Assembly: GCA_905160935.1 (NCBI GenBank) | Contig: CAJHZI010000566.1 | Coordinates: 1,221,204 to 1,285,203 of the forward strand | Source of the DNA: Enchytraeus crypticus | Lineage: Eukaryota; Annelida; Clitellata; Enchytraeida; Enchytraeidae | DNA: 64,000 nt | Reading direction: 5' to 3' | Shown here: piece by piece, positions 8,228-55,371 of the stretch | Position numbering within the stretch: position 1 is the first letter of the stretch | How the letters are laid out: the number at the start of each line of letters is the position of its first letter | Notes under the pieces: generated by a model | What the model was told of the DNA's origin: nothing | The model's database searches: none | The model's input: only the letters and a program-made list of their open reading frames with translations | Made by a program: the position numbers and the translations under genes

Positions 8228-9193
8228 GGCCTAAAGAAAATTCAAAACAACTGCCATTTCACTCGACGTTGAAAAAGCTTTCGACTCTGTTTGGCACCAT
8301 GGTCTCTTCTTTAAATTGATGCAAATAGGGCTTCCTGTAGAAATATGCCGTATCCTTTCATCCTTCCTTAGCGACAGAACTGCTGAGGTTAAAGTCAACA
8401 ATACACTGTCAAAACCCTTTACACTACGAGTAGGCACTCCACAAGGAAGCGTGTTGTCTCCACTTCTATATCTCATATATGTGAACGATGCTCCTCTTGG
8501 TGTCAGCAATGGATGCAGAGCTGGCCAATTCGCTGACGATATAAGCGTGTGGACCACAACTGTAGGTCCCAAGCTTACACAGTTTCAGCTTAAAAAAACC
8601 CTGGACGCCATCCAGAGCTGGTGTTGTAAATGGCACATCAAAATGAATGCTGAGAAGACTCAAATGGTAACTTTCAAGGCTGGAAAAAGCAGCTCTATCA
8701 AGCTTACTTTCTTCGGCAAAGAAATCTCTGAGGCTTCCTCAATGAAGTACTAGGTATATCTCTCGGCAAGTATAGCATTTTTTTTGTTGCATTTTCCGAG
8801 GAAGACTACATCGCAATTAAACAGTTAGAGTTGGCTGAAAGACGAGCCCTACGGGCAGCTCTAGGAGTCAACAAGCTCACGTCTAATGCAACTCTGTATG
8901 AGAGGACTGGCATACAACCAATTGCCGACCGACTAAAAGATCTCAAGAACAAAGCTCTCATGAGATTTGAACAAACCTCTAAAGGCCTAGAAAACTTAGC
9001 CATCCTCAAAGACATAATAGGAGTCTAAACAAGGAAGAAAAAATAGAAACTACGCTAGTACATTTTGGAAATACCTCAAGCCTATAGCTTCCGTCTGAGC
9101 CGCTCCGGTTTTGATTTATTCATACCCACTGTAAAGGCGTCTTGAAGAGAAGATCCAAGATCTTCTGACCTTGACGTTAAACTTACTTATTCG
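8228..9193 (+). mobile_element. 5'-truncated LINE with 13-bp target-site duplication
   Basis: Flanked by GTGCATGTAACAG at 8215-8227 and 9194-9206. Encodes part of a non-LTR reverse transcriptase: ISLDVEKAFDSVWHHGLF, VGTPQGSVLSPLLYLIYVND, FADDISVW, WCCKWHIKMNAEKTQM. After MKY a missing base creates a TAG (8751-8753); the C-terminal part resumes at about 8803 (LELAERRALRAALGV). Jockey-like by FADD and general sequence. Inactive. Confidence 0.88.
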
Positions 9194-19779: not shown

Positions 19780-22700
19780 GTGAGAACTAAACTCTTAACT
19801 CTACTTCATACATGTATTTAAATCACATCAAACTAAAAGCTAAAGCCAAGTTTAACGCCAATTTCAAGCTTGATGGCATGTCACTGTCTGGGAAAGCACT
19901 GAATTTGAACCCTGAACGCTACAATCCTGTAAGTCTCTTGCAGTGACTGATATTGTAAGTTACGAAATTTCACAAAACTAGCTTTTGTTGTTAGATCAAT
20001 ATTTAATAAATATTTACAATATTTATCAATATTTCCTTCTGTAGAGTTTTACCAAACGGAAAGCCCAAAATACAATTTGTTCAACAGCCTGCTCTCGCAT
20101 TGTACTAGCAATGTGTTGCAGGTCCCCCATATATTTTTAATCATTGAGTAAAAGTAAAAGGGCTATCTTAATTTATGTAGACATACATTAAGATCTTCCA
20201 TAACGTTGTATATACTACTGTATAACTTTTTTAACGAAAAATTAAAGGGTTTACTTGGTTAGGCAGCCAGTTTACTCAATCATTTAATTACCAGTCCCTG
20301 TTGTCCAAGATTTTACTCTCTGGTATAACTAAAGTGGCATTAAAATACGGTCATTTAAAATATTAGTTAAACTAAGTAAAGTAAGTCACTAAATAATTAA
20401 AGTAAGTCACTAAGTGAAATCTCTATTATTAATTTATGCCTATGAATGAGCAGTACGTTAAGGTGAGCGCTATAGAGGCAGAGAGCACAAGCGAAGATGA
20501 TGTGGAGATTGTGGCGAACGTATGGAAGCTGATGTCCGACTACTGGAATATGAGACCTCCCAAACTCATCATCTCTGTGACTGGGGGAGCAAAGAACTTC
20601 TACCTCAAGAACAGGCTGCTCAATAACTTCAAGAGAGGCTTGCTAAAGGCTGCAACCTCCTCAGGTATTCATTCAACATATTCTTTGAGACTACTCAATT
20701 TCACATATCCTAAGCTAAATTTGCTCTGCTGTGGATTGTTTTAGCTGAGAACATACCAATCTGATCATTTATCCTTAAAACTGAAGCTTAGTTTTGTTCT
20801 TTACTGTACGACCGCTAAATTTTAGAAAAAATATCGATATTGCAGTGATACCTATTATTAAGACAAAAATTGTACGGGTTAACGTGTTTAAAGTAGTAGC
20901 TAAAATTGCTGTCTACAATTAATTTTCAAAAATAACTTTTAACGACAGATTCTAAGAGAAGTCCTACTTTTTAAAACGCGAATTACGATAAGAAATTAAT
21001 TCTCGCAGCTGTTAGTAACTTCTGTACAGTAATATCGCTATATTAGTTATAGTACTAGATGATTTAATAAAATTATTTAAAACCTGAAAATAAATACATC
21101 ATCTACAATATATTGAGAACGTAATTTACCTCAAAAGTCTTCATTAGCCGTTACGTCTCTACACCATTCTTTCTCTCGTCTCTACACCATTCTCTCTCTC
21201 TCGTCTCTACACCATTTAAGTGAGACACTACCTTATGAATTTTTGAGGTAAATTTAAACTACTTTACTAGTGTAATTATACTTAAAACGCTGCACGAACA
21301 TAATGAATAGAACGGTTCATAATTATTCTGGTTCATAGTTAACTGCTTTTCGTATTAATTATCACTTCAAAATATTAGTAACTTATTAGCGACAATAATA
21401 TTCTCAATGATTATTACTAACAACCTGTGTAGATGCCTGGGTAATAACTGGGGGCACTAAGACAGGTGTGATGGAGTTGGTGGGGGAGGCAGTGAGGGAC
21501 TACTACCTACAAAACGGCTCGTCCCGGCAACCCATCGTGGTCATTGGTATTGCCACCTGGGGCATTGTAGCCAACAGAGAGAAACTACGAGATAAAAATG
21601 TATGAAATTGTCTGGTCGTTTGATTTTAATTAAATATACATGTAATGAACACGCCTTGTTCACAATTATTATGCTAAGAAATATATATTGTAGATAGAAA
21701 ACAGATATTATATAGCAGTTATTAATATATTAGGAAATATATATTATAGATCGAAAGCAAATATTATACAGCTGTTATTTATAAAAATTAAGTGACGTAG
21801 GGTATTTCCAAAGATTTATGATAGATTATATAAGTCGAAGTTATAAGTAGGCCTAGCTAGATTATTACGCTGGGTATTTCCGAAGAGACGCAGCTAACGC
21901 GTAAATCGATTAAACGAGAGGTGCCATGGTTGGCTGAAGTCGATCGCTCGAGTAGTATATTAAGCGGCCGGAGATACAATAGAAACAAGTTGGGGCCGGG
22001 GGCCTACTTGGTTCGTCTGAGTAGGTTCCCAGGAGGGCGGCTCCGATGGGTCTATACGGTGTACAACGTGTAGTTCTCATAAAGGATCGAGTCTCAATGA
22101 TCCTTTCCCTTACTGACTCCCTACGGGATAGGTAAGGGGGCCTCTCAGGTTGGCTAGTGTCCCAAGCCGCGAAGGCTAATTTGGAGGAGAGAGAGTTCAG
22201 TGTCCCCCTGGGTAGGCCCAGGTAAGAGGCTAGTAGTCCACGGCGATACCCGGGTCGAGTCCGTCTCTGCGGGTATTCGCTAAGCGCCTGGGTCGAGTGT
22301 GTCTCTACAGGCGAGGAGGCTGGTAGTCCACGGCAATACTCGGGTCGAGTCTGTCTCTGCGGGTATTCGCTAAGCGCCTGGGTCGAGTGTGTCTCTACAG
22401 GCGAGGAGACTGGTAGTCCACGGCAATACTCGGGTCGAGTTCGTCTCTGCGGGTATTTGCTAAGCGCCTGGGTCGAGTGTGTCTCTACAGGCGAGGAGGC
22501 TGGTAGTCCACGGCAATACCCGGGTCGAGTTCGTCTCTGCGGGTATTTGCTAAGCGCCTGGGTCGAGTGTGTCTCTGCAGGCGGGAGGCTGGTAGTCCAC
22601 GGCAATACCCGGGTCGAGTTCGTCTCTGCGGGTATTTGCTAAGCGCCTGGGTCGAGGTGTCTCTGCAGGCGGGAGGCTAACAACGGCATTGCCTGGGTCG

Positions 22701-27900: not shown

Positions 27901-29638
27901 TTCTTTGTTCTTTCTTTGATATTATGCTAGATCTGACCATGCATTAGATTTTAATATCTAAACTAAACAATTACTTATATCATCATATCATTTGTTAACA
28001 GAACAACGGCATATTCCCCTGTTACTACAACATCCTCGAGATTGACCCCAGTGACAAAGACTCCGCCCCACTCGATTCTAACCACACCCACTTCATCCTC
28101 GTCGACAACGGCAAGAAGGGCTCTGAAGCCTATGGTGGAGAGACTGGATTCAGAGCTCAGCTGGAGAAATTCAGCCACAGGGATGAAGGTTTGAATCCTA
28201 AGCCTCCGACTGTTCTATATTTCTTGTAGTTATATCGGTTGAATTTTGTCTAAATTGTTGCGTAGTTTTCTCTTGAGTATAACTGAGAGTTCTTTGCACA
28301 GGTTTTAAATGTATTAAGGCATGTTAGTAAAGTAATTTTAAATGTATTGAGGCATGTTAGTAAAGTAATAATGAATTAAGATCATCAGTCTTTCGGTTAG
28401 TTAATAAGACAAAGTGGGATATGAAAATATGAAAAATTAAAATCATTACTAAAGGTATGACTAGAGGCATGACTTGAACTAGAGGTATATCTAGAAGTGT
28501 AACTAGAGGCATAACCAGAGGTATAACTAGAGGTATTACTAGAGGCATAACAAGAGGCATAACTAGAGGTATAACTAGAGGCATAACTAGTGGCATAACT
28601 AGAGACATAACTAGAGGTATAACTAGAGGTATTACTAGAGGCATAACAAGAGGTATAACTAGAGGCATAACTAGAGGTATAACTAGAGGCATAACTAGGG
28701 GCGTCATAATGACCATAAGTTCAGCGTCAGTTTCAGTTTCATACGTAACTACAGAAGATGTACGGTAGAGTTTCGCACCAGTGAAACTCTACCGTACAAG
28801 TAAATTTGATAGAAATTTCTGGAGCCTAGACGTTCATCATCCGAATTCCTTTTCTGGCGTTGGTTTGTATCTTAGCGCCTTGTCGCCTTTTACGACACAT
28901 GCAAGTGCTAAGTGTTTACGTTAATGCTATTATGCAATTAAACAACTTTGAGGTTATATGTTCTATTGTATTGTTCCCCGTGTTGATTCCGGGTTGCTTG
29001 AAGAATTGACAAACTGGTGACTGCATGTATCGTAGAAGGCGACTAAAGCACTAAGATCCTTACCAACGTCAGAAAGTGCATTCGGTTGGTGAGCGCCTAG
29101 GCTCCAGAAATTACTACAAAAATGTAAACGAAAGGAAAAGTCTCAAATAGGGGATTGGCTTATGGTATAATGTAGGACAGAGAGGATTTGAGACAGTCTA
29201 TTTGTATCCCGACCCTAGTTAAACTGGGATTCAAGGGAAGAAGAAGAATAAAATGATGTTGATAATACACATATATCGAGGAGCACATCATTAACCAATC
29301 ACGTTTGCTCTTCTCACAAAAGCTTTAACATTTTTCTGTTAGCGTTATGCTATTCACAACTAACACTGTTAAAGTAGAGTGTTGATGCTGCACAGCCACA
29401 TCTAAGTCCATACAGTCGATACCTGTGGTGTTGCTTGTTGTGGAGGGAGGGAAGAACACGCTCAAGACAGCCAGCGAGGCCATCGAGCAGGACACACCCG
29501 TCGTCGTGATAGAGGGGTCGGGTAGAGCTGCCGACTTCATCGCCTTCGCCAGTAAGAACAGGTGAGCGAGATACTTGTGTATTCTATAGCATAAAATGGT
29601 TTTAAATAAATATCATCATCATCGTCAGCATCATCATC

Positions 29639-34492: not shown

Positions 34493-37400
34493 TATTGCTC
34501 TACATTATTTCTTGCAGAGGTTAGATCTGAATGAGGTAATGCACAGAGCTCTGCTCGAAGATAAGGATGAGTTTGTGACCTTGTTTCTAGACAGTGGACT
34601 GGATCTCCGAGATTTTCTCACAATCGAACGGCTGAACAGGCTCTACCACGATGTAAGAAAAAAAACTATTATAATTAGGTCGTAATTTTTAGTGGGTTCA
34701 ACGTCAAAGTTACGAGTAAAAAGGGTGTCTCTGCATGACAACATCGAAACCCGTGGCCAACATCGTCGTCAATATCTCTGCGTGACAACATCGTCGTGGT
34801 TGATTTAAATGATCGACCAACCAAAGCAGCAGTCAGACTAGGCTGAGTGTTGATAAAGTTCTCAATGAGAAAAATACGTAATAATAATAATAAATAATAA
34901 TAATAAAAAAGCTAATGTTAACATCAGTTACCTCACTCGAAGGCGATGTCAGTGACGGGAGAGACCAGGATTTGAACTGCACATATTGATGATCCGCGGT
35001 CGAGTATCTTAAAATATCATTAATAATCTGACGTTAATAATAATAATAATAATAATATTAAAAATAATAATACTAATAATAATAAAGTATTTTACCATTA
35101 TTATTATTAGAAATAATTATATTAAAATGTAATAAGATAAATGTTAAAATATAATATAAAGTATATAAAGTAATAGTAATAATGATGAAGATTATGATGA
35201 TGATGATGATGACGTCGACGACGACGACGACGAAAATAATAATAGTATAAATTTTAAATTATAATATTAATAATAATAGGGCAATTAAACAAATAAATAA
35301 TAAAATAATAATAATAATATTAATAATTGGCATTGCGCACTCGGAACTCCTCGCGAAGGCGTTAATCCCACAAGAAAAGGCCCGTCTGCTTGCTGTTTCT
35401 ACTCTTCATAGTGGTGACTGGTTGAAAGCCTTGCCTTTATCTTCCTGTGGCCTCTGCCTGGATGACGAGACAGTCAGAGTAGCGGTTGGTCTTCGGCTGG
35501 GCTCTACTCTTTGTGAACCACACAACTGTGTCTGCGGAGCATCGGTCAATGCTCTGGGCGCTCACGGCCTGTCCTGCATGCGGAGCGCTGACAGAATCAG
35601 CAGACACCAGTATCTGAATGATCTGGTATGGCGTACTCTAACTCGCGCAAATATTCCGGCCATAAAAGAGCCCCAGGGTTTGAGCCGCTCGGATGGGAAA
35701 CGACCGGACGGTGTATCTCAAATTCTTTGGGCTGAAGGCAAGTGTATCAGCTGAGATGTCACTGTGACGGATACATTGTCAGCAAGCAATCTCAGCCTTT
35801 CATTTGCTGCTGCTGGCTCGGCTGCTGAAGCCGCCGCCAATAGGAAGGCACTTAAATATGCCACAGTCTCTAGCAGCTACATCTTCCTGCCAATTGCTTT
35901 TGAGACATTTGGCGCCATCAACTCTGCCGCGTCTGACTTCATAAACGAATTAGGCAGGAGAACCAGTGCTATCACAGGCGACCAACGCGAAAAGGCCTTT
36001 ATATGGCAGCGCCTATCTATCGCACTCCAGCGTTTTAATGCTGTCTGCGTTCGTGGCACATTGGCGGGTGCGGCCTCCCAGAGCGTAGAGGAACTATTTT
36101 AAATATTTTTCATCTTTCTTTTAATTAAATAGAGTCTTTCTTTTAGCTTATATTTTAGCCCAGGGCCTTATATAGCCCAGGGCATTAGTAATAAAATAAT
36201 AATAATAATAATAAGGGAATTTATATGAGCGCCACCACAGTAGCGCTAATGTTACATGCTAAAAATATTAAAATATCAAGGTATCTAATCTTCAAAGCGT
36301 CTGTCAGTATGTTATTTGCTACTATAACACGATTACTGCTTGTACTGGTTTTGTTATTGTAATATATTTTCTTATAATTTGTGTTGTTGTTGCGCAATAC
36401 AGGCTCTAGAAGATCCCACAGCTCCACCAGTTGTTTGCCTGCTGGGAAATTTAGTACGAGCCGTTATGGTAAGCAATATGTAGTATACAGGTATATAAAT
36501 TAAGAATTCGTAAATAGGACCGTGAAGTATATACGTTACCAATCACGTGACTCTCTACAGCTGATCATCAGCTGTTCAGTGTTGATAAGCAATAAATCGA
36601 TTCGTAGTAGATACCGGCTGATTATAATTAATATTGCCAGGTCAGTATAGTATAATTTAATTAATATTGTATGAATTATAATTTAATGTTTTAGTATCGT
36701 AGAACTATTCTAAAACAGTATATAATATCCAGTAGGAGGATGGAAATGATATAATTTAAATAATATGATGGAATTTTAATTTCATTACATCAAATAATGC
36801 AAATTAACATTAAATATTTCTTGTCTAACATAATTATTAGTAGTGTGGTTCATATATAATAAAGTATTATATAATTTAATTAAAAGAACGAAATTTTTAT
36901 TCTAATTCGTCAAATAGTGCAATTTAACATTAACTGTTATTTGTTTAGCATAGTTATTGGTTGTGCGAGTCTTATATATAATAGAGTATTATATAATTTA
37001 ATTAATACATTAATGCATTATTAATGCATTAATTCTAATACATCAAATTTAACATTAAGCATTGCTTGTTTAGCATAGTTATTGATAGTTTGGGTCTTAT
37101 ATAATAAAATATTATAGAATTTAAAAGAATGGAATTCTAAAACATCAAAAACTTCAAATAGTGCAGTTTAACATTAAGCATTGCTTGTTTAGCATAGTTA
37201 CTGGTTGTGCGGATCGACTCAGGAGGATAGTCACAAGTTTCCCCCCAACATTCTCAGATATGTGGGTCAGGTCATCAACAATCTCTCACAGGATCAGCGG
37301 GAAAACGTCTATCAAGGTCAGCAGATCAATCAGTCAATCAATCAACCAATCAATCAATCAATCAGTTTTTAAAAGTAATACATTAGCCGTACTGAAGATC

Positions 37401-39674: not shown

Positions 39675-42600
39675 CGTAATCATAATAATCATTATTATCA
39701 TAATAATCATAATAATAATAGTAATAATAAAAGTAATAATGATAATAATAAAGGCTTTCCATAACTTTGCAAAGCTGGCTCACTACTTCTCATTCCAATG
39801 TCGACGACCAAATTACGAAATGACTTATTGGATCCGTGTACTGCACATCAGTGATCTACTGATAAGGTGGCTTAATTATTCAAGCGTGAAACTGGAATAA
39901 AAAAAATAATGCTGGTAAAGCTAATATTAACGTCAGTTTCCTCACTCGAAAGCAATGTCAGTGACGGGCGAGCCGGGGATTTGAATCTCGCACATATTGG
40001 TATGCGCGGGGTTCATGCACATCGTTGGAATGAATCCCTCAAACGAATTTTAACCGCTCTAGTTTTGATTATCTATATAAATTTACCTGTACGCGGATGT
40101 TGTAAATAGGTTTTTATTTTAATTTTACAGTTTCCTACTTTTAAATGAAAAACAGTAATCAGTATTGGTAATTTTATTTTCAAATAATAGCGGAATATTT
40201 AAGTGCTAATCTTTTAGCCTTTATTTCCGCTTCACATGCAATTTTGTAATGTACCTTTCCTTCTGTGTCTGACTTACTAAACTGTCTCTCTCTCTCTCTC
40301 TCTCTTAGTGCACTGCCTACTGGCAGGTCCATGGTATATAACGCCTCCACTCATCTCTATCTATCGTCTTTCTCTTCATGTCCACATACGAATGGATCTT
40401 TAAATTATTTATAACATTCTTTGTGATATACCAACATTCTAGGGGGATTCTGCTTCTGATGAGGTGGGCCCCCAATGCCTTCCTCAGCTTCGACTAACAT
40501 TTATTGGGCAGGGGCGTCATTCCCTGAGAAAACAATCCTGTTTACCCATACTGTATGTTGTGATAAATTGATTCAATCCACCTATGCTTGTCGACAGGTG
40601 ATAGGCCTGGAGCCACTGAGGTGGAAGAAAACGAGGAGGGTCCCAGTCAGTCAAGCAAGAAGAGGGGAGAGTTTGAGTACACGGAGCGAGAACTCTTCAT
40701 ATGGTGTCTGCTGCTCAACCGCAGGAAACTGGCTGAGATCTTCTGGAGGCTGGGTCAGGATCACATAGGCTGTGCTCTGACTGCCAGGTGAGTTCTAGTC
40801 GACCATTCCAAGCATTTATTTGTTTATAATATAACACATTTGTTTATATTATAGGATGAAGACAGAGAAGAGTGGAGGCGTTATATGCCATGGACCTGCC
40901 AGTAGGCAGTGCACTAAGAGAGAGAATATAACACAGATTATAGTGAAATGATCAACTGTGTCGATATCTATCACTTTTTAATACCACATGTTACATCTGT
41001 TACTCAATTGTGTCCATTTTCTAGGCGTTTTACCACGGTATGCTGTTTTATGTGCAGCATGCTACTGAAAGCACTAAGTGAGGCGGCAGATGAAGAGGAG
41101 GAATTAGATCTCGCTCAGGATCTTCTTAAAAACGCCCAGTTAGTTTAACACCTTACGTTCATAGACTAATTTTTCTTATATGCGCCAGTTACAGTTTCGT
41201 ACATACTCCTACTAGATATCCTACTTATGCTGACTATTGAATACTGCTTCTTACTTGTAAGTTAGGAAGATGATTAACATTATCTTTGTAATGGTAGCTC
41301 GAGTGTGTCGAGTCTGTCTTGAGGATATGCTCTGTGCTTTTGAACGTTAACGTTAAGCACACTTCAACCTATTAGTGTAGTCTTCTCCAACTTCATCTAA
41401 AATGTAGTCAGGTTTTGATTTTTGATAGCAATCTACTTGCTTAACGGATATCAAGCTATTTGTTTTAGCAGATAGCAAGCTGCTTGTTTTGCAAATATTA
41501 AGCTTCTTACTATATTGAATGCAAGCTGCTGGTTTTCCAAGCTGTGGGTTTTTCAAATAGCAGGATAATTGTTTTGCAAATAAGAAGCTTCGTACTATAT
41601 TGATAACCAGCTGCTGGTTTTCAAAATAACAAGCTGCTGGTCTTTCAAATAACAAGCTGTGGGTCTTCCAAATAACAAACTGTGGGTCTTCCAAATAGCA
41701 AGCTGTGGGTCTTCCAAATAACAAGCTGTGGGTCTTTCAAATAACAAGCTGTGGGTCTTCCAAATAACAAGCTGTGGGTCTTCCAAATAACAAGCTATGG
41801 GTCTTCCAAATAACAAGCGGGGGTTTTTGCGAATAGCAGGATGCTTTTTTGACAAATAATAAATTACTTGTTTTGCAGATAAAAAAACTGCATATTTTTG
41901 CAGATAACATGCTGTACACGCTGCTTGCTTCACACGTCAAATTGCTTGTCCACTTCCAAATGCTTCTCGAATGCGAAACTTGCGCGATATACAAAACAGC
42001 GAAAACGTTCAAGGCTGTATATGGTTCTCTAAGTGTACGGTTACTGCTATGCGTTTCCTTTGTTCACATATAGGCTATGGTAGCCTCTTTTTTATTGCTA
42101 TTTGTTTTGTATTGTTATTTATTTAAACGAGATTCGAAATTAAAATTCGAAATAAAAGCATGACTAAAAAGTTCAGTAGAAAGGCGAACACCTTGACAGA
42201 CTTGGATATTGTAATATTTATTGAAAATGAATTTGAGACATTTTTGATGTTCACAGAGACTTTGAGTATATGGCGGAGGGCGTGTTGAACGCCTGCTACC
42301 AGAAGGATAAGCCGATGGCTCATGAGCTTCTGATTAGAGAGCTGGATCAGTGGGGCAAGAAGACGCTGTTCCTATTGGCAGATGCAGGCAGACAGATGGA
42401 CTTTATGGAACACACCTGCTGTCAGACCAAGCTGAACAAGAACTGGAAGGGAAAGATGGCGCTATATACTCCAATGTGGATCGTCAGTCTAACTTCTTAA
42501 TGAATTTGTTTGATTGATGTTATATTTCTCTTTTTCAAATTTTATTTTATTTTTGATTGCTGCTATATTTCTCTTTTTCAAATTTTAGTTTATATTATTT

Positions 42601-43386: not shown

Positions 43387-46300
43387 TCTTATTAATACAA
43401 TCATATTCTTATTTCTTTACTATAGTTATTGATTGCTTTTATGATTCAGATACTCCTTGGACTGATTCTGCCGTTTGTCGCAGTACCTCTCATTAAATTC
43501 ACGGATGACACCGGACCGGAAGTGTTGTCCAATAACGACGTACATCCTGCTGGAGAGATTAAGGACGCCGGTGGATCGGGACCGTCTAAGAGGCGACCAA
43601 AGAGGACCACCAACTTCTTTGCAGCTCTCTATTACTACGAAACCGCTCCCGTAGTTAAATTCTGCTATCATACGGTTGGCATGTTTTTATAATTACTTCT
43701 ATAATTGATATTTAATTTGTTATCATAATTAATATTCGTTAGTATTTATATTTATTAATTTAAATTAATTTATTAAATTAAATTAATAACTTAACTACTG
43801 CACGTTTCGGAAGAAATTAAAATTATCAAGTTCTTTGTATTTGAGATGGTTCAAATCCTGGTCTCGCCCGTCACTGACATCGCTTTCAACGAAGGACATT
43901 GACATTAACATTATCTTTTTTAACTTAAATTGCAGTTGTCAATGACGACTGTAGCACTGTAATTGTTGTTATGTTTACAGATTTCATTCGTGATATTTCT
44001 CGGTCTCTTCAGCTATTTCATGTTAACGGATCTCTATCCCTACGACCCGTCCATACCCGGATATCATCCGAGCATTGCGGAGTACATCGTTTATGGATGG
44101 GTGATCACGATGTGGATAGAGGAACTCAGACAGGTCTGCATTGTTGGGTTCAAGACTTAAAATTATACCCTACTATTTTTAGCAGTTGAACATTCTCAGC
44201 TCTCTCTCTTGGTGCACTGCCTACTGGCAGGTCCATGGTATATAACGCCACCACTCTTCTTTGGCTTCCGCCTTCCTCGTCACGAACACATATGAGTGGG
44301 TCTTTACATCATCTAGCAATACTCATTCTTGTTGTTTTATACCTTTTTCTTGGGGTATTCTGCTTATGATGAGGAGGGACTTCCCTGTGCCTTCCTCAGC
44401 TTCGACTAACGTCTACGGGACAGGGGCGTCATTCCCTGAGAAAACAATCCTGCTTACCCAAACTATCCTGTTTATCTAAACTATCCTGTTTACCCAAACT
44501 ATCCTGTTTACCCAAACTATCCTGTTTACCCAAACTATCCTGTTTACCCTAACTATCCTGTTTACCCTAACTATCCTGTTTACCCAAACTATCCTGTTTA
44601 CCCAAACTATCCTGTTTACCCAAACTATCCTGTTTACCCAAACTACCCTGTTTACCCAAACTATTCTGTTTACCCAAACTATCCTGTTTGCCCAAACTAT
44701 CCTATTTACTCAAACTATCCTATTTACCCAGTCTCAGCATAAAGTGCATTTTTTCTTGTGTTTTATTACATTAAGTCGCATAAAATAAAGTTAAATAAAG
44801 TTAGAGGCAGACTAGGCTCCCGCCTGGTCTGCCTATAATTTAATTAACATAACAATTCTCTGGAGAGCAATGTGAAGTTTTCATTAAACTGATCACTGAA
44901 TCCCTCAGTGATAATACCATAGACGTGTTGTTAGGTCTATGGCGTAAACGCTTTACATTTATCTATCATCTTGTACTCTCGTTAACTGTGTACAACATAT
45001 ATTCTTCATATCACAAGTCACACGCATAAGAGAAAGTTGTTTTACTGGGAGTAGAGCTGGGTCAGTTAAAATATTCGCGAAATCATTCACACAAATTCAC
45101 ACGAAATCATACAGTAAAACAACAATCGAAACAAATATCACATTTTTCTTATTTTATATTTATAATAATAATGATAATAATAAACGTTTAACGTCCTTTT
45201 CCTCATACAAGGATGATGTCAGGGATGTGCCCTTATCACACGTCACTTCTAATATCGATTTATGTACGAAACAGTTCGATTAACATATCTATTGACGTCC
45301 CTGACATCATCCATGTATGAGGAAACGGACGTTAAACCTTTATTATTATTATTATTATTATTATCTATTATTAATATTTTTATTAACTCTATTCACTCGT
45401 GTACTTAATGTTCGCTATTTATTTTTATTCACTCGTGTCGTACTCACTGAAATATTTAAATCTCTGTAGATTTACTCCAACGAGCCCAAGTCGTACATAA
45501 AGAAACTCCAGGCGTACTTCAGCAGCTCATGGAACAGATTTGATCAGCTGATCAACCTCCTCTTCCTCACATCTGTCATCCTCAGGTTTTCTCTGCCCGC
45601 TGATGAATTTGTCTGGGCGAGAATGTTCTACACAGTCACCCTCTCTCTCTACTACATTCGATTTCTTCAGGTGCGTCTAAATGGATGTGTGAATGTCTCA
45701 TTAGTGTAGTCTCGCTGATCATGTGAGTGTGTGTACACGCACACACACGCACACAAACACACACACACACTCATACACACATACGATCATAGAACAATCA
45801 AATGCAATACACGAATCTTAAATATAGTTCCTTCTAATTCCAGCACTAGCATTAAACGATTCATAAATTATATACTCTAATATTTTACTCTACATGAATG
45901 TCTTAATAAATGACAGATCCTGAGGCGAATTGAACCCTCGTGGGTTCGATTCTCAGCCGCGCTGATCTGAGAGTAAAATCTCGGACATTCACTGGACTGG
46001 TCACACAGAAAATGCCCTAAATTGCCTAATGGTGTAAACATGTGGTATTAAAAGTGATAAATATCAACATAGTTGACCAGTTCATTATAACGTGTGTTAT
46101 AATTGTAATAATTATTTAGTCAAGTGACACATTAATTACGTGAAATATAAGCGGTTAAATAATGCAATTAAATTAAAAAGTGTGTATCGTTCAAAGGTGA
46201 TCACTTTCTTAGTTATAAGTAAAGTAATATTGAAATATTTAAGTGTACAAGTGAAATATTATTATTGTAACTGTAAGAGAATGAAATGCATTGGAAATGA

Positions 46301-46581: not shown

Positions 46582-47667
46582 GCAATATTAAATTAATTAA
46601 AACTATTATGATTATATTGATAACGCAACAATTAATATATTGTACTATTCAAGTAATTAAACTTAGAACGTTGACATTATAAACATATTAGCAAAGACAG
46701 GGTTCGATTCAGATGTATATCAACTGATAGAATGTTTTTAGTAGTTTTGAACGTTCCAGATGCTGTCGTGAATGTTTCAAGCAATGTAACGAGTGATTGA
46801 TATTTCAGGTTTTCTACGTGGAAAAGAATATCGGCCCGAAAGTCGTTATGATTCGTCAAATGGTTAGTTATTCGCATTTAATATAAACTTTGTTTCCGCT
46901 ATCTAAACACCTTAATTTCCCAAATGTACGGTAGTATATATATGAGTACTATGATACATTGTCAATTTTCATGATGTTTGTATAACATATAAACTAATTA
47001 TGTGTAAAGTGTTGACTTAATTTAAATCTTAAAGTTTTAAAAAGTTTAATAAACTTTAATAAAGTTAATCGTAATCGTTGGAGTACTGTGAGATCTGAAC
47101 ACAAGTTGCTCAGCTATAACACGAGGTGTAGTAAAATGTTACATACAGTTCAAAGTCTACACTCCGAATTACTAAATCTACACAATATCTACCAGTCGAA
47201 ACTACGACTAAACTAAGTCTAAACTAAGTCTACACAGTCTTGACATGAAATATAGGTCATTAAAAAATTAGGTATAAAAGCGTAAAAACTGAGATTTTCT
47301 AACAAGGATATGGTTGAGTCTGTTCACTTGCAGTACATTTGCTTAATTTTTGTTATTTCTGAAAAATTAAGGGCACTTTTTCATTTGTCATATTTGGCAA
47401 CAAATTTCTAACTACCTGCATTTTGACAGAGTACTGTCAAAATAGTTGAAGTGTTTAGCAGATTAACACCTTCGTAAACAGCCAGTCTATATTTAACAAC
47501 ACATATACATATATCATATAATTAATCGAATGGAAGTCTCAAATAGAGGATTGACTGATGGTATGATGTTGGACAGAGAGGATTTGAGACAGTCTATTTG
47601 TATCCCGACCCCAGTTAAACTGGGATTCAAATGAAGAAGAAGAAGAAAAAGAAGATAAGGATGATGA

Positions 47668-47730
<63 letters not shown>

Positions 47731-49600
47731 GAGGACATCATCGACCAATCACGTTTGCTCTTCTCACAAAAGCTTTAACATTTTTCAGTGTAGAGCTGAT
47801 TCTGACAGGCAGTTATGTAACCTTGCAGGTCGTAGATCTGCTATTTTTTCTCATGCTCCTCGCCGTATTTCTCATAGCCTACGGGGTGGCTCAACAAACT
47901 CTTCTCTATCCAAACGAAGAAAAAAACTGGAACGTTCTATACGGAGTGGTCTATGAGCCGTATTTTAGCATTTACGGGCAGTTTAATTTAGATGAGCTAC
48001 AAGGTAATGCTTGTGATGATAGGCAGTTATCATGATTTCGTTTTAACATTCCCCCAAAGCTATCTTTTAAAATTGTGTTTGGCTATTGACCATTTCAGAT
48101 TTAATATTTAGAAGGCGTTTATGCGCAAATGCTAAATATTAAAAAAGACTTGGTAAAAAATGCATGTAGCATTATAGATTACGTTTATAATTATACATAT
48201 TACCGTAAAACAGTGTACTTCTATTTTGTTTTAGGAGTTAAGTAAGCTATTAAGCTGAGTTTGACGTCTGTTTCCGCTTCACAACTCAGTTTTAAGACAA
48301 GGTGCAGATGAGATTCGATAGATTGAAATTTAACTTCTCAAACATGCTTTATAAAAACTTGACTGGTACAACGATTAGACCGGTACAACCGATTAGACCG
48401 GTACAACCGATTAGACCGGTACAACCCATTAGACCGGTTCATCCCATTAGGCAGGTTCAGCCCATTAGACCGGTAAAACCGTTAAAACATTAAACGTCAA
48501 CATAATAAACATTTAATAAACATTAAACATAAAAAACACAATAAACATTTAATAAACATTAAACATCAAACAACCCATTTGACCGATGCAACCGTTAAAA
48601 CCAATACAAAGCGATAAAACCGGAATTGTTACTTACGCCCTGACATGTATTTAAACTCCATTAATTACAGAAGCCTCATATTTACATTTCTCTATTAATT
48701 TTTTATGTCACTGTCAATTATGTTATTCGTGTAGTATACTGAAAGCTATAATGGTATAATATATGATTGTGTGGGATATTGTTGTGCCTATGCTTAACTA
48801 TATCCCACACAATCATTAACGGTTTTAAAACTTGCACAGATCGAAGACTTGCTCTTCTTTCTCATGCTCTTCTCTGTGTTCCTCCTGTCATTTGGAGTGG
48901 CACAAAGAACTCTGCTTTATCCAAATGCCGCCAAAAAGTGGAGAATTTTATACCACGTGCTGTACGGACCGTATTACAGCCTGTACGGGCAATTTAGTCT
49001 CGATGAGCTACAAGGTATCACTAGAGATCAGGCACAGTAGTGTTCAGTTGATATCACTAGAAATCAGGCACAGTTGTGTTCGGTTGATATCTCTAGAGAT
49101 CAAGGGTTCAGTTGATATCACTAGAGATCAAGTGTTCAGTTGATATCACTAGAGATCAAGTGTTCAGTTGCTATCACTAGAGATCAAGTGTTCAGTTGAT
49201 ATCACTGGAGATCAAGTGTTCAGTTGATATCACTAGACGATAACCGCCTTTGTTCCACTGGATGTCAATAGAAGATAATCACCTTTGCATTCAGTTCTTT
49301 GATTTCAATAGACGACCTTCACATTTGTGTTTAGTTGAAATATTTCACTCTGCCACGAAACATATTTTGCAGTTTTGTCTCATTAGCGAAATATTTAGTT
49401 TGCGACTATCAACGATCGTTAATTGGTTTGTAATAATTCTATATAGGCTGTTATAGAGTGTGGTGTTGGGCTATATTTAGTTGTATAGGCACGTTGCGAT
49501 ATTTGTTTTAATAATAGTAATTATATACACTCTTTATATACTTATATATGTGTATATACAGATACGCCTACATGCACATATATACTTATATACGTATACG

Positions 49601-49654
<54 letters not shown>

Positions 49655-49671
49655 TTATACGTATATATACA

Positions 49672-49728
<57 letters not shown>

Positions 49729-52700
49729 CGTTGAACAAGCTATAAAGACCATGAACATGTAAAACATGAACAAGCATTAACAACCATTAACATGTAAAAC
49801 ATGAACAAGCATTAACAATCGTGAACTTGTAAAACAAGAACAAGCAATAACATCCATGTTCTTAAATGTGATCACTTGGTTGTCAGCATTTAAGCTTCAG
49901 TTATGTCTTTGGCAGGTCGTAGATATGATGATATGATGATATAATGTAGGACAGAGAGGATTTGAGACAGTCTATTCGTATCCCGACCCTAATTAAACTG
50001 GGAATCAAAGGAAGAAGAAGATGATGATGATATACATATATCGAGGACATCATGACCAATCACGTTTGCTCTTCTCACAAAAGCTTTGGCATTTTTCAGT
50101 GTAGAGCTGTTTCTGACAGACAGTTTTATAACCTTGCAGGTCGTAGATCTGCTCTTTTTTCTCATGCTCCTCGCCGTATTTCTCGTAGCCTACGGAGTGG
50201 CTCAACAAAGTCTTCTCTATCCAAACGATTCCAAATCATGGAACATTCTCTACGGAGTCGTTTATGAGCCGTATTTTAACATTTACGGAGAATTTAACCT
50301 CGATGAACTGCAAGGTATTGATAAGGAGAAGTCCCTAACCATCTGCACGTATATTTCTGCCTTTAGAATTAAGAACTAATATCGAACAGGGGTTACAGTT
50401 TTGGCTAGCATCTAACAAAATAATTTGGCTCAAATTTATAAAGTCTCTGTGGTTAAGAAAAACTTAATCTCTTTTATAAGCAGCCGTTATTTATCTCTAA
50501 GAGAAATTCACCTCAACTACTCGATTGAATGATTTTTTGTGTTGAACGAACTAATGTGAGAAAATAGCTTTTCAGTCGTTTACATTTTATTCTGCTTGTT
50601 AATTAAAGCACTTTTCGATTCCCAAGTTGTTGCATGCAGATAAAACAAGCTTTTTATGTTTTGTCATACAATTAGGTAATCCGCTTTAACCCACAATTCA
50701 TTCTTATCTTTTTCTGTTGCTTCTCAGCATTATTTGAGTTACTGTAAACTTCGCTGTGTATGATCATTTGTTTAGCATTTTCTACCTGGGATAATTTTGT
50801 AATTCAGTATTTGTTTCTATTTAAGCCACCTAGGTTGCTTGTAAACATCTTGCATTTATGTACTTGTCTTACCCAAACATATTTTGATGGAATATACTGT
50901 ATAGCATCACTGACATTTCTTTACAGAGCCATATTTGAGCACGATTTAAACCCTTAGCATAAGAATTTAACAACTTCGGATTGAATAATTTCTCAGAAAA
51001 TTTGTGGTTACACTGTAATTTGTACAGTTTATTTCTTATTTTGTGTTTGCTAAATATTGCTCGAATATTAGTTCTGTATGCTTGCATTACCCATTGCTTT
51101 GCTGCATTCCTTAGTTCGAGGATCTGAGATTGTTCATCGGAGTACTGTTGGTGTTTATTATGTCGTTTGGAGTGGCGCACCACGTCCTGCTTTATCCCAA
51201 TCACTACAAGACTTGGGACATTCTGAAGAGGGTCGTCATGAAACCCTATTTTCAGATGTATGGGGAAATGTTTCTGGATGAAATGCAGGGTCTGTAATTA
51301 GTACAGTAGTGCAGTAGCTGCAGTTAACTTGCTCTCATACCTTCAAGCTACCATTCTTCATTTTATACAAATTCAATAGACTTCGTACTAGATTGCTTAA
51401 ATTACTTAACCCCCAGTACATATTTAAACTAATTTTCGCATTAGTCCTTAAATTAACTTATTTATAACACGTAATGTTACAGAAATTTATCATTGAAAGA
51501 CGGAAAGCTGTAGTAAATTAATATTGAAATTGCTTTTTAAATTTAATTAATTTTTCCATGAAATTTTAATTATTTGTACAGTATTTACTGCACAATAAAC
51601 TGTACATATATAAGCTTAGTTCACTAAACACTTTTTTGATTTCCTCTGCTTTTTTACTTTACTCTTGCAAAAGAAATATATGTTAATAAAGCCACTCAAA
51701 TTTAACACCACTTTTCACATACACTTGATATAGAATTTATAAATTATTTAACCCGTATGTTGAAGATATTTGGTTATAGAGATTGCTTTTTAACCATCAA
51801 TTAGCTTTGTAATACTTGTTCAGCAGTCTTGTACAAAAGTCTATTTCATTATTCGTCATCGTGGGTGGTTCACAGCTTTGCTATGATATTTTGTACAATA
51901 TTTAAGGATCTCTGGCCGCTATTTAAGTATTTAATTTCTTATAAATTTAATGTGTATATATTTTATTTTCATATTTTCAGTTGCAAACCTTTCATTTTAT
52001 TAAATACATATCGCAATAAAAAATAAATACTAAAGAAACTCCTATGATATCTTTAATAGATCTGAGCTGTCTCTTCGTTCTGATGTAGTTTACATCAAGC
52101 GTTTAAACAAATTTAAACCAGTCATATTTTTAACCTGTATATCAGATTAATTTAGTGAATGTTAATTATTTTAACTTGTATATCTGATTAATTTAGTGAA
52201 TGTTAATTATTTTAACTTGTATATCTGATTAATTTAGTGAATGTTAATTATTTTAGGGACTTATATTATTTAGCGGTTGTTAATTTTTAAGTCAAGTTGG
52301 TTTGAGCTTATAATGCAAAACTTTGTTCGTGTATTAATACCAAAATCTCTTCTCATTTAAATGTTGTGTAAGTAATTAACTCTCAATCGCTTTTGTCGTG
52401 AATTCCACCTACCAATCATCGTATAGAATTACATCTAAAACTAATCTGACTCCAATTTTAGTTAGCTGCTTATGACTTGAATGCTGTATTTAATTGATTA
52501 AAATGGCAGTCCTGAAATGGTTAATATTTTACAAGAATTAAGTTTTACTTGTCAGTATTTCATCCCTTGATAATCTCGAGAAAGATCCATTATACGCGTA
52601 TTGAGCTTTTCTAGGCAGGAAGTAATCAAGTTAAACACTTCACAGGAAGCAATCCTGCAGAACACTTCGCAGGAAACAATCCTGTAGAATACTTCATAGA

Positions 52701-55371
52701 AATCAATTCTTACTTCACATTAATGTAATATCTGGCTAATAATTTTAAAACATCACCTGATAACAGTTGATTTGTCCTTACAAAAAATTAAATTAGAAGC
52801 TGTAAACAAAGGTCTGAACTACATTGTAGGAGACGTACCGGTTTAATATTCTTTGCATAAAATTAAATTAGAAGCTGTAAATAAAGGAATTAACTATATT
52901 TCAGGAGACGTACCGGTTTAATATTCTTTGCATAAAATTAAATTAGAAGCTGTAAATAAAGGTATGAACTACATTGCAGGAGACGTACCGGGCTGCTCGT
53001 CTAACGCAACGATATACGAGGACAGTGACCTAGGCATACCCCGCTGTCCCGAGAACTCGTGGCTTGTTATGGTTCTCTTCTCCATATACCTCATCCTCAC
53101 TAACATCCTCCTCATCAACCTACTCATTGCTATGTTCAGGTAAGCCTGCACTCAGCATTCAATCAATCGATCAATGGATCGATTGATAGATTTATTTATA
53201 TATTTATATGGCGTCAATGCATTTGATAAAGTATGAATAATATAAGAATAGTGGAGCTATTGGAGGCCATGGCTGAAGAAAGTGAAAAGTTTGGATTGAA
53301 AATTAATCAAAGCTCGTTCATCATTCAATCTATAAATCGATCGTTTTTAAATAGTTTTATTTTCATCATAGCATTATTCTAATATTATAATTCTAATATT
53401 ATAATTATATCATTGTAATCTATCGTATGCATTCTAATGAATAATTTATCTTTTCATTCTGTTCTTTTCCTGGATTAAGATTTTTCGAAATCTTTCAATC
53501 TTCGTTGATTACAGGAAAATCGGTCATTCCAGGCATTTAAATGCTACAAGCCAATCAATCAATAAGAATTTAACGTCGGGTTCCTCGTCATAAGGTAATG
53601 CCAGGGACGTCTCTAGCAGATCTGCACAAACAGGCGCCGAAACAAGATGACCGTTGTGAACTTGTGATATTCCAGGTCTTTGTGTGATCACTGCGCCCTG
53701 CTGCTCTGTATTGCAAGTCAGCTGCATTGAATAAAATAAAACCGTTACAAAATCGTATTTAACTTCCATTTCTTCATCGAAGAATAATAAGAGGGACGTC
53801 TTATAATAAAGAATACCATCCAATCATTATAATATAATACAACAATTCTATTTTTAGCTACACGTTCTCCAACGTTCAGGAGAACTCTGAGAAGGTCTGG
53901 AGGTTCTACAGATACGGTCTGATCAAGGAGTACTTCGCTAAGCCCACTCTAGCTGCACCCCTCATCATCTTCAGCCACGCCTACCGCCTTGTCAAAACTC
54001 TCATCAGATACTGCAGGAAACAGAAGAAGCCCATCAAGAACGATTTCAGTGAGTGACATTTTTAGTTCATGTTGCTTCAAGAATCACCTCGATAAGATCT
54101 GTTTGTATTTCTTGTTGATAAGATCTCTTTGTATTACATGTTGCTTCAAGAATCACCTCGATAAGACCTGTTTGTATTTCATTTTGATAAGATCTCTTTG
54201 TATTTCATGTTGCTTCAAGAATCACCTTGATAAGATCTGTTTGTATTTCATGTTGATAAGATCTTTTTGTATTTCATGTTGCTTGAAGAATCATCCAGAT
54301 AAGAGCTGTTTGTATTTCATGTTGCTTCAAGAATCGTCTCCCATAAGAGCAGCTGCTGCTGTTCGAGCAATTTGTTGCATCTAAATCGTTTTAATTGAGT
54401 TTTATTTAATTTCTGTTGATTTTGGAAGTTGAATATATCAAAAGTGATAAGGAATCGCTATTTGTTGTTCTTGGAACATAGTTAGATCAAGAACGATATC
54501 AGCAATCGCCATTTGCATTCAACTAAAAAGAATAAAAAAATAATAAAAGAATAAAAAATAAAAAGAATAAAAAAAACGGTTTCGTTATGAACTGTAAAGC
54601 TGTATCAGTTGTTATTTATTTCAGCACTTATTTTATTTATATGTAACTGTTGGGCAGCATGTGAAATTACGTAAAGTAAACGTGAGCCGCTTAGAACGGA
54701 CATGGATGTTAAGAAGTTTTAATTAGATCATGCAAGATAGTTTTGCGGAGTATATTGGCAATACTTCATGTCATATTTCTCTTCAATTTCTACAGAATAG
54801 TAGCGGATCTATTAATGCTTGACTTTCTTTCACTTTTTGGAGAAAAAACCTAAAAATATGCTAGAAGATTTTGCCAGAATTTTGTAGAGAGATATGATTT
54901 TTTTTTAAATCACGTGATTCCCTGCATTCTGCATACAAATATTAGTCAATTAATGCTTAATAGGTTTTATTTAATACAGTGACTATTTTCACAGACCCAA
55001 TGGATTGATACCTTTCTTCTTCGTCTTCGTCTTCTTCTTTTTCTTCTAGTTCACTGCCTAATGGCAGGTCCATAGCACATCTTTTATCTGTCTCTCTGTA
55101 CCAACTATTTCAAGAACTTCATTGTTTTAGTTCTGCATGCCATGTATATATGATACCTTTCAACTTTGGACTGATTTTCTGAATTTTGAAATTTGCACCG
55201 ATTTTGGACCTTCTTTTTGCTCGCCAGCTTGATTTTTACTCAATAGTGCTCTATGTTGTGATTGATGACTGTAGAACTCTAATTGTTGTGTTATTGTTAT
55301 TATTATTATTATTATTTTATTTAACCCGGTGTAAAGATCCTGGGTTATTATTATTATTATTATTATTTTTA

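Follow-up and report, generated by a model that had tools for sequence, protein, structure and literature searches.

Four tandem pore exons with a glutamine or glutamate selectivity filter in a TRPM2-like channel gene of Enchytraeus crypticus, and their predicted role in calcium selectivity

We analyzed 64,000 nt of the genome of the annelid Enchytraeus crypticus (hereafter the window: assembly GCA_905160935.1, contig CAJHZI010000566.1, here C473, positions 1,221,204 to 1,285,203 of the forward strand), which by its sequence matches holds a TRPM2-like (probably TRPM-beta) channel gene. Between the exon for the end of S4 and the exon for S6, this gene carries four tandem homologous exons of 175 bp and equal phase (e1 to e4; Table 1), which code for S5, the turret, the pore helix, and the selectivity filter. 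The filter contains glutamine (Gln) in e1 and e2 (YGQ) and glutamate (Glu) in e3 and e4 (YGE). Judged from the DNA, mutually exclusive splicing of these exons probably tunes the calcium selectivity of the channels made from this one TRPM gene.

Four pore exons and one reading frame

Each pore exon has AG before it and GT after it, is entered in phase 0 and left in phase 1, and consists of 58 open codons plus one base. An original prediction, made from the letters of the window, had described these four exons between shared S4 and S6 exons, with the filter codons CAG, CAA, GAA, and GAA, and both the exons and the codons were found where it had placed them. Joining the S4 exon to any single pore exon and then to the S6 exon yields an uninterrupted TRPM pore domain that continues into the TRP helix. 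The product with e1 matches TRPM3 (phmmer, 1.7e-28), and YGQ and YGE align directly with YGE of TRPM3 and FGQ of TRPM5. The post-filter motif LDE is present in all four exons (the filter and post-filter stretch of e4 is YGEMFLDE). As lone 58-residue segments, e1 to e4 were not recognized as ion channel by Pfam. GC content of the window is 35.9%, compared with 35.4% for the E. crypticus genome (PMC8460440).

The reading frame is open in four of the 16 inclusion subsets of e1 to e4, and these are exactly the four that contain a single pore exon; inclusion of none, two, three, or all four leads to an early stop. The expectation that one exon keeps the frame and that two or three break it was thus correct, but the further expectation that all four together would keep it was not, since four times 175 restores length only modulo three and the product meets a premature stop. 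At 52761-52991 the S6 acceptor region is present as three tandem 75-bp copies, including two pseudo-acceptors (52830 and 52905) that each precede the first 12 exon bases; their use would add a few residues followed by a TAA stop.

The pore exons match one another within the window at tblastn E values of 8.7e-17 to 1.9e-33, a likeness beyond chance, and the copies are 57-86% identical in DNA. Residue identity is 39/58 for e1 and e2, 30/58 for e3 and e4, and 50/58 for e1 and e3 (eight differences), and e4 differs from e1 to e3 at about half its residues. In each of the six exon pairs there is more synonymous than non-synonymous change (Fisher P = 9.3e-4 to 8.5e-9, rounded counts), the ratio of the non-synonymous to the synonymous rate (dN/dS) being 0.22 for e1 and e3, 0.16 for e1 and e2, and 0.13 for e2 and e3, with synonymous sites saturated in the pairs that involve e4. 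Sequence comparison thus indicates that purifying selection is acting across all six pairs. Donors were scored with a human donor matrix, and among the 3630 GTs of the window they rank at percentiles 98.3 (e1), 90.0 (e2), 92.3 (e3), and 86.8 (e4); e4 ranks lowest, which makes it the likeliest of the four to be weak or under tight regulation. The weak donor of e4 and the moderate donors of e2 and e3 might mean that only some of the exons are live and that the rest are old duplicates rarely or never spliced in. This is improbable, however, because all four exons are open and flanked by AG and GT, and purifying selection extends to the saturated pairs with e4.

The window ends at the end of its contig, and a second contig (C647) overlaps it and carries the downstream side of the TRPM gene. 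The overlap comprises 7380 bp with one mismatch, followed by 8953 bp with five mismatches and two gaps. The array on the + part of C647 is identical to that on C473 in spacing and sequence (7380 bp, one mismatch), and its presence on two overlapping contigs argues against a misjoin. We dropped the idea that C647 represents a second haplotype, since it merely overlaps C473 and is no independent haplotype. The head of C647 (L009 1-2677) folds back on itself around the (TA)n tract next to e1, a structure that probably stems from misassembly at a palindromic repeat. This fold-back is the one feature that would favor an artefactual array of collapsed or misjoined paralogs, an explanation that we regard as extremely improbable given the repetition on C647, a divergence among the copies too great for allelic error, and the single S4 exon and single full S6 exon matched in the window.

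Identity of the gene and origin of the array

The N-terminal SLOG (melastatin homology) domain is present, with PF18139 over its cut-off at four sites in the window (C473:1241717-1250762) and a phmmer match to TRPM2 at 2.7e-48, as are the S1-S6 channel and the TRP helix of TRPM. From pre-S1 to S4 the best match is TRPM2 of Nematostella (nvTRPM2; 131.6 bits, the next being TRPM1 at 104.7), and the SLOG region matches TRPM2 (167 bits) and nvTRPM2 (165) best, compared with 137 bits for TRPM3; the TRPM2-like identity proposed for the rest of the gene is borne out by these two regions. Taken by itself, the pore region gives an ambiguous result, its best match being TRPM3 (102 bits) with e1 and TRPM5 (131 bits) with e2. 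Together, the matches suggest that the gene lies within or close to the TRPM-beta group described in PMC13143021 (vertebrate TRPM2/4/5/8). A pattern search, as distinct from a profile search, found no Nudix box (NUDT9-H) in the window or in the first 40 kb of C647, so that the gene appears to be without the enzyme domain of TRPM2. No alpha-kinase domain (as in TRPM6/7) was noticed by eye in the downstream open frames, for which no kinase profile search was made. Identity with NALCN was excluded by the pore, pre-S1 to S4, and SLOG matches.

We searched the whole assembly (524,188,772 bases in 802 contigs) with e1 and obtained 21 matches as a lower bound: four in the array, seven in overlapping or folded copies on C647, and ten others. 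Each of the ten other TRPM S5-pore exons occurs as one full-length copy in its 10-kb locus (10/10; tblastn E ≤ 0.1), and no second S5-pore copy was found near any of them in the genome search, with both flanking exons recognized at two of the ten loci (on C373 and C356) and introns elsewhere perhaps not fully covered. At three loci (L013, L017, and L019) there is also a single short and weak match (E = 0.001 to 0.04), which does not resemble the exon. The count of ten excludes C795:1298064, C373:3648158, and any more diverged TRPM genes. At the first two of these, SLOG matches (C795:1298064-1298282 and C373:3648158-3648316) are present and no S5-pore exon was found with e1; they are possibly more diverged TRPM or TRPS genes, so that more such TRPM genes may exist.

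The ten exons all have a homologous acceptor, and their donor lies at +175 in six and at +181 in three, the tenth having candidates at +172 and +181. The form of 175 bp and phase 0/1 is thus the usual one for this TRPM exon in the genome. A homologous acceptor and a donor mostly at +175 in single-copy exons suggest that the array arose, most simply, by tandem duplication of an ancestral 175-bp TRPM exon. At the filter, nine of the ten exons have Glu, one has Asp, and none has Gln; Gln is therefore derived in e1 and e2, as it is in vertebrate TRPM2/4/5. By this comparison Glu is the ordinary state in this genome, and what is new is the Gln of e1 and e2. The original prediction had taken Glu to mark TRPM1/3/6/7 and Gln to mark the TRPM2 type, a rule that applies to vertebrates only, since nvTRPM2 and nine of the ten other exons have Glu.

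A 59-bp partial tandem duplicate of the start of the S5 exon and its acceptor (54 of 55 bases alike) occurs in the TRPM gene on contig C455 (L013 4954-5012). Contig C364 carries four tandem TRPM genes at about 178-286 kb (L014-L017), roughly 31-45 kb apart, with the filter FGE; S5, S6, and TRP exons were matched separately in each of the four.

Within the array, e1 and e3 share 86% of their DNA, unevenly. A changepoint test delimits a similar tract of 175 sites, which takes in the first 89 exon bases and the 86 intron bases just before them. This tract holds 10 differences, and the remaining 86 exon bases hold 20 (permutation P = 0.0024; for the exon without the intron, 4/89 vs. 20/86, P = 0.0048). 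Third-position differences number 2/29 in the first part and 12/29 in the last, and the introns downstream of e1 and e3 are unrelated (35% identity over 40 bp). We read the tract as a probable younger conversion or partial duplication that covered S5 and spared the pore helix and filter, so that the Gln/Glu difference would have survived; uneven constraint is an alternative explanation of the mosaic. In the 3′ half of the exon, e1 groups with e2 by nucleotides (bootstrap 0.83) and with e3 by amino acids (0.74), and third positions give a near tie (0.50/0.49), so that Gln may have arisen once or twice. A 91-bp element, 90% identical between its copies, lies upstream of e1 (47556-47646) and of e3 (49934-50024); a similar translated stretch at 29163-29324 suggests that it is a dispersed repeat.

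Elsewhere, an open frame on the + strand of C647 (21315-21821), downstream of the TRPM gene, shows by eye several DAPEFV-like motifs, which recall the PABP-binding PAM2 motifs of a PAIP-type protein. Fragments at 8235-8750 and 35251-36099 resemble, by eye, reverse transcriptases or retrotransposon open frames.

Table 1. Features of the TRPM gene in the window (positions count from the first letter of the window)
Feature	Positions	Strand	Basis
N-terminal SLOG (melastatin homology) exon, approximate borders	20514..20666	+	PF18139 (C473:1241717-1241869); phmmer to TRPM2
SLOG exon, approximate borders; match crosses one stop, overshooting exon	21426..21605	+	PF18139
SLOG exon, approximate borders	28053..28181	+	PF18139
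SLOG exon, approximate borders	29401..29559	+	PF18139
Open frame with pre-S1 exon, approximate	42237..42497	+	In query aligned to nvTRPM2 642-738
Open frame with S1 exon, approximate	43426..43689	+	In query aligned to nvTRPM2
Open frame with S2 exon, approximate	43963..44157	+	Aligned to nvTRPM2
Open frame with S3-S4 exon, approximate	45470..45706	+	Aligned to nvTRPM2
Constitutive exon, end of S4 and S4-S5 linker, phase 0 out	46809..46862	+	
e1 side of putative young e1/e3 tract	47743..47917	+	Changepoint test
Predicted alternative pore exon e1 (S5, pore helix, filter YGQ, LDE), 175 bp	47829..48003	+	
Filter codon CAG (Gln), codon 51 of e1	47979..47981	+	
Predicted alternative pore exon e2 (YGQ, LDE), 175 bp	48840..49014	+	
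Filter codon CAA (Gln), codon 51 of e2	48990..48992	+	
e3 side of putative young e1/e3 tract	50054..50228	+	Changepoint test
Predicted alternative pore exon e3 (YGE, LDE), 175 bp	50140..50314	+	
Filter codon GAA (Glu), codon 51 of e3	50290..50292	+	
Predicted alternative pore exon e4 (YGE, LDE), 175 bp, weakest donor of the four (GTCTGT)	51115..51289	+	
Filter codon GAA (Glu), codon 51 of e4	51265..51267	+	
Constitutive S6 exon, 160 bp, phase 1 in	52980..53139	+	Spliced-frame test; PF00520 fragment below curated cut-off
TRP-helix exon (matched coding part)	53859..54032	+	

Predicted exon choice, exclusivity, and calcium selectivity

The filter of Nematostella TRPM2 is Y1035-G1036-E1037, and its permeability ratio of calcium to sodium (pCa/pNa) is about 35, whereas the ratio is about 0.45 in human TRPM2 and about 0 in TRPM4/5, all with Gln (PMC5976436). 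Inactivation is controlled by LDE, as swaps of this post-filter motif show (PMC5976436). Vertebrates have replaced the filter Glu, all aligned invertebrates keep the post-filter triplet intact, and the filter residue and LDE differ jointly between the TRPM2 of invertebrates and that of vertebrates (PMC6461439). A Gln-to-Glu mutant of TRPM4, cited in the original prediction as reported to confer Ca2+ permeability, was not found as Q977E in the literature among the matches listed.

From the exons, their frames, the selection on them, the ancestral exon, and the residue states, we infer the expression, exclusivity, and function of the isoforms as follows. Each functional mRNA would take exactly one of the four pore exons, because any other number meets a stop, and other splice products would carry premature stops and be lost or truncated. 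The resulting subunits would be identical except in S5, the turret, the pore helix, and the filter, two having Gln and two Glu. Because these isoforms would share one channel and differ by Gln or Glu at a residue linked to calcium, splicing would most likely act on calcium selectivity: those with e3 or e4 should be strongly calcium-preferring and those with e1 or e2 more sodium-permeable, and mixed tetramers could grade the effect. With LDE, and hence a pore linked to non-inactivation, in all four, none should inactivate as human TRPM2 does. Whether exon choice and tetramer mixing (0-4 filter glutamates) indeed give a graded series of channels, from sodium-leaning to strongly calcium-selective around a non-inactivating LDE pore, we hold to be an evenly balanced question.

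Several points weigh against a tuning of calcium selectivity by exclusive exons. The Glu and Gln exons also differ at many other sites. The donor of e4 is weaker than the other three (86.8th percentile vs. 90.0-98.3), and intron pairing that might enforce exclusivity did not exceed shuffled controls. A tree of 16 S5-pore segments (e1 to e4, the ten paralogs, and two PDB sequences) splits e1 to e4 with low support, placing e2 beside TRPM5 (support 44) and e4 beside the genes on C364 (63); we draw no conclusion from this tree because it has 58 positions only. Gln-bearing TRPM8 has substantial calcium permeability. The authors of PMC5976436 write that the Glu/Gln difference "might underlie" calcium preference, and this wording, together with the permeability of TRPM8, means that the filter residue alone may not decide.

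The exons could also be exclusive and used and yet tune gating, the response to temperature or ligands, or assembly, with the Gln/Glu difference incidental. S5 and the pore helix vary too, about half the residues of e4 being its own, and pore-loop variants of TRPM3 alter pharmacology as well as selectivity (PMC11409758). Moreover, a sister relation of e1 and e3 combined with an ancestral Glu would require that Gln and Glu were exchanged twice among the four exons. Nevertheless, we consider this explanation rather unlikely, given that it is the filter residue for which a link to calcium has been published (PMC5976436), that Gln occurs in 0/10 of the other S5-pore exons found, and that the e1/e3 tract ends at exon position 89, the filter halves differing at 20/86 sites.

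No mechanism for exclusivity besides the reading frame was found among splice-site type, intron length, and intron pairing. Incompatibility of U2 and U12 sites was rejected, as none of the four donors is U12-like and the splice sites are of the U2 type. Steric exclusion needs far shorter introns than the 836, 1125, and 800 nt that separate the pore exons, and was judged unlikely. Docking and selector pairing was rejected as well: with 50-nt intron tiles and (TA)n masked, the best duplex reached -31.8 kcal/mol, compared with -33.0 and -31.1 in two mononucleotide-shuffled controls. Tracts of (TA)n with 26-28 units, upstream of e1 (47671-47726) and of e3 (49602-49727), bracket the Gln exons e1 and e2. 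Pairing of UA with UA between them might loop out e1 and e2 together, an idea weakened by two further (TA)n tracts elsewhere in the window (38472 and 43340).

Known systems and significance

NALCN offers the closest precedent: its exons 15a/15b and 31a/31b are tandem and mutually exclusive and span the P-loop (Senatore et al. 2013, PMC3557258), and exon choice swaps the filter EEEE for EKEE or EEKE, in annelids too (PMC3557258). Like e1 to e4, these are tandem exons that differ at a key filter residue. However, NALCN has four domains and chooses between two exons, which exchange Glu and Lys at one of the four filter positions. The gene here belongs to TRPM, a family of tetramers, and has four exons, and the predicted Glu/Gln swap would occur in every subunit and involve S5 as well. 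In the T-type channel LCav3, S5-P exons 12a/12b likewise shift calcium vs. sodium preference, although that exon lies in the turret and not in the filter, and there are two exons only, in another channel family (Guan et al. 2022, PMC9694082).

Within TRPM, pore splicing of TRPM3 (alpha1/alpha2) also changes divalent permeability: an alternative 5′ splice site of exon 24 gives a short or a long pore loop (12 residues), the longer loop lowering divalent permeability (PMC11409758, PMC9886277). This is no array of homologous exons, however, and S5 and filter are not swapped there. Vertebrate TRPM2/4/5 show the Glu-to-Gln difference at the same filter position, but fixed between species or genes and with LDE lost in human TRPM2 (PMC5976436, PMC6461439), whereas here both filter states occur in one gene and LDE is kept in four exons. 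The TRPM of Pieris has mutually exclusive first exons (PMC7143563). No TRPM pore-exon array was found in the open literature among the matches listed; subscription papers and gene databases lay outside this search, so the novelty is provisional.

What is provisionally new here is an array of four exons, each running from S5 to the filter, that offers a TRP channel gene a choice between Glu and Gln. If its predicted use is true, it would be, to our knowledge, the first splicing-controlled switch of filter charge in any member of the TRP superfamily. Splicing that switches the filter, as in NALCN, would then also occur in the TRP family, with four exons to choose from. Comparison between species can hardly tell apart what the filter residue and LDE each do for calcium preference and inactivation, since both differ at once between the TRPM2 of invertebrates and that of vertebrates. 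In the present gene LDE does not vary, and Gln and Glu pores would alternate in an otherwise identical channel, which would amount to a clean natural experiment in a worm that is in laboratory use and has a public genome and transcriptome; PMC8460440 names the transcriptome GALF01 and the study PRJEB41884. One gene would then repeat the Glu-to-Gln step by which vertebrate TRPM2/4/5 parted from their ancestors.

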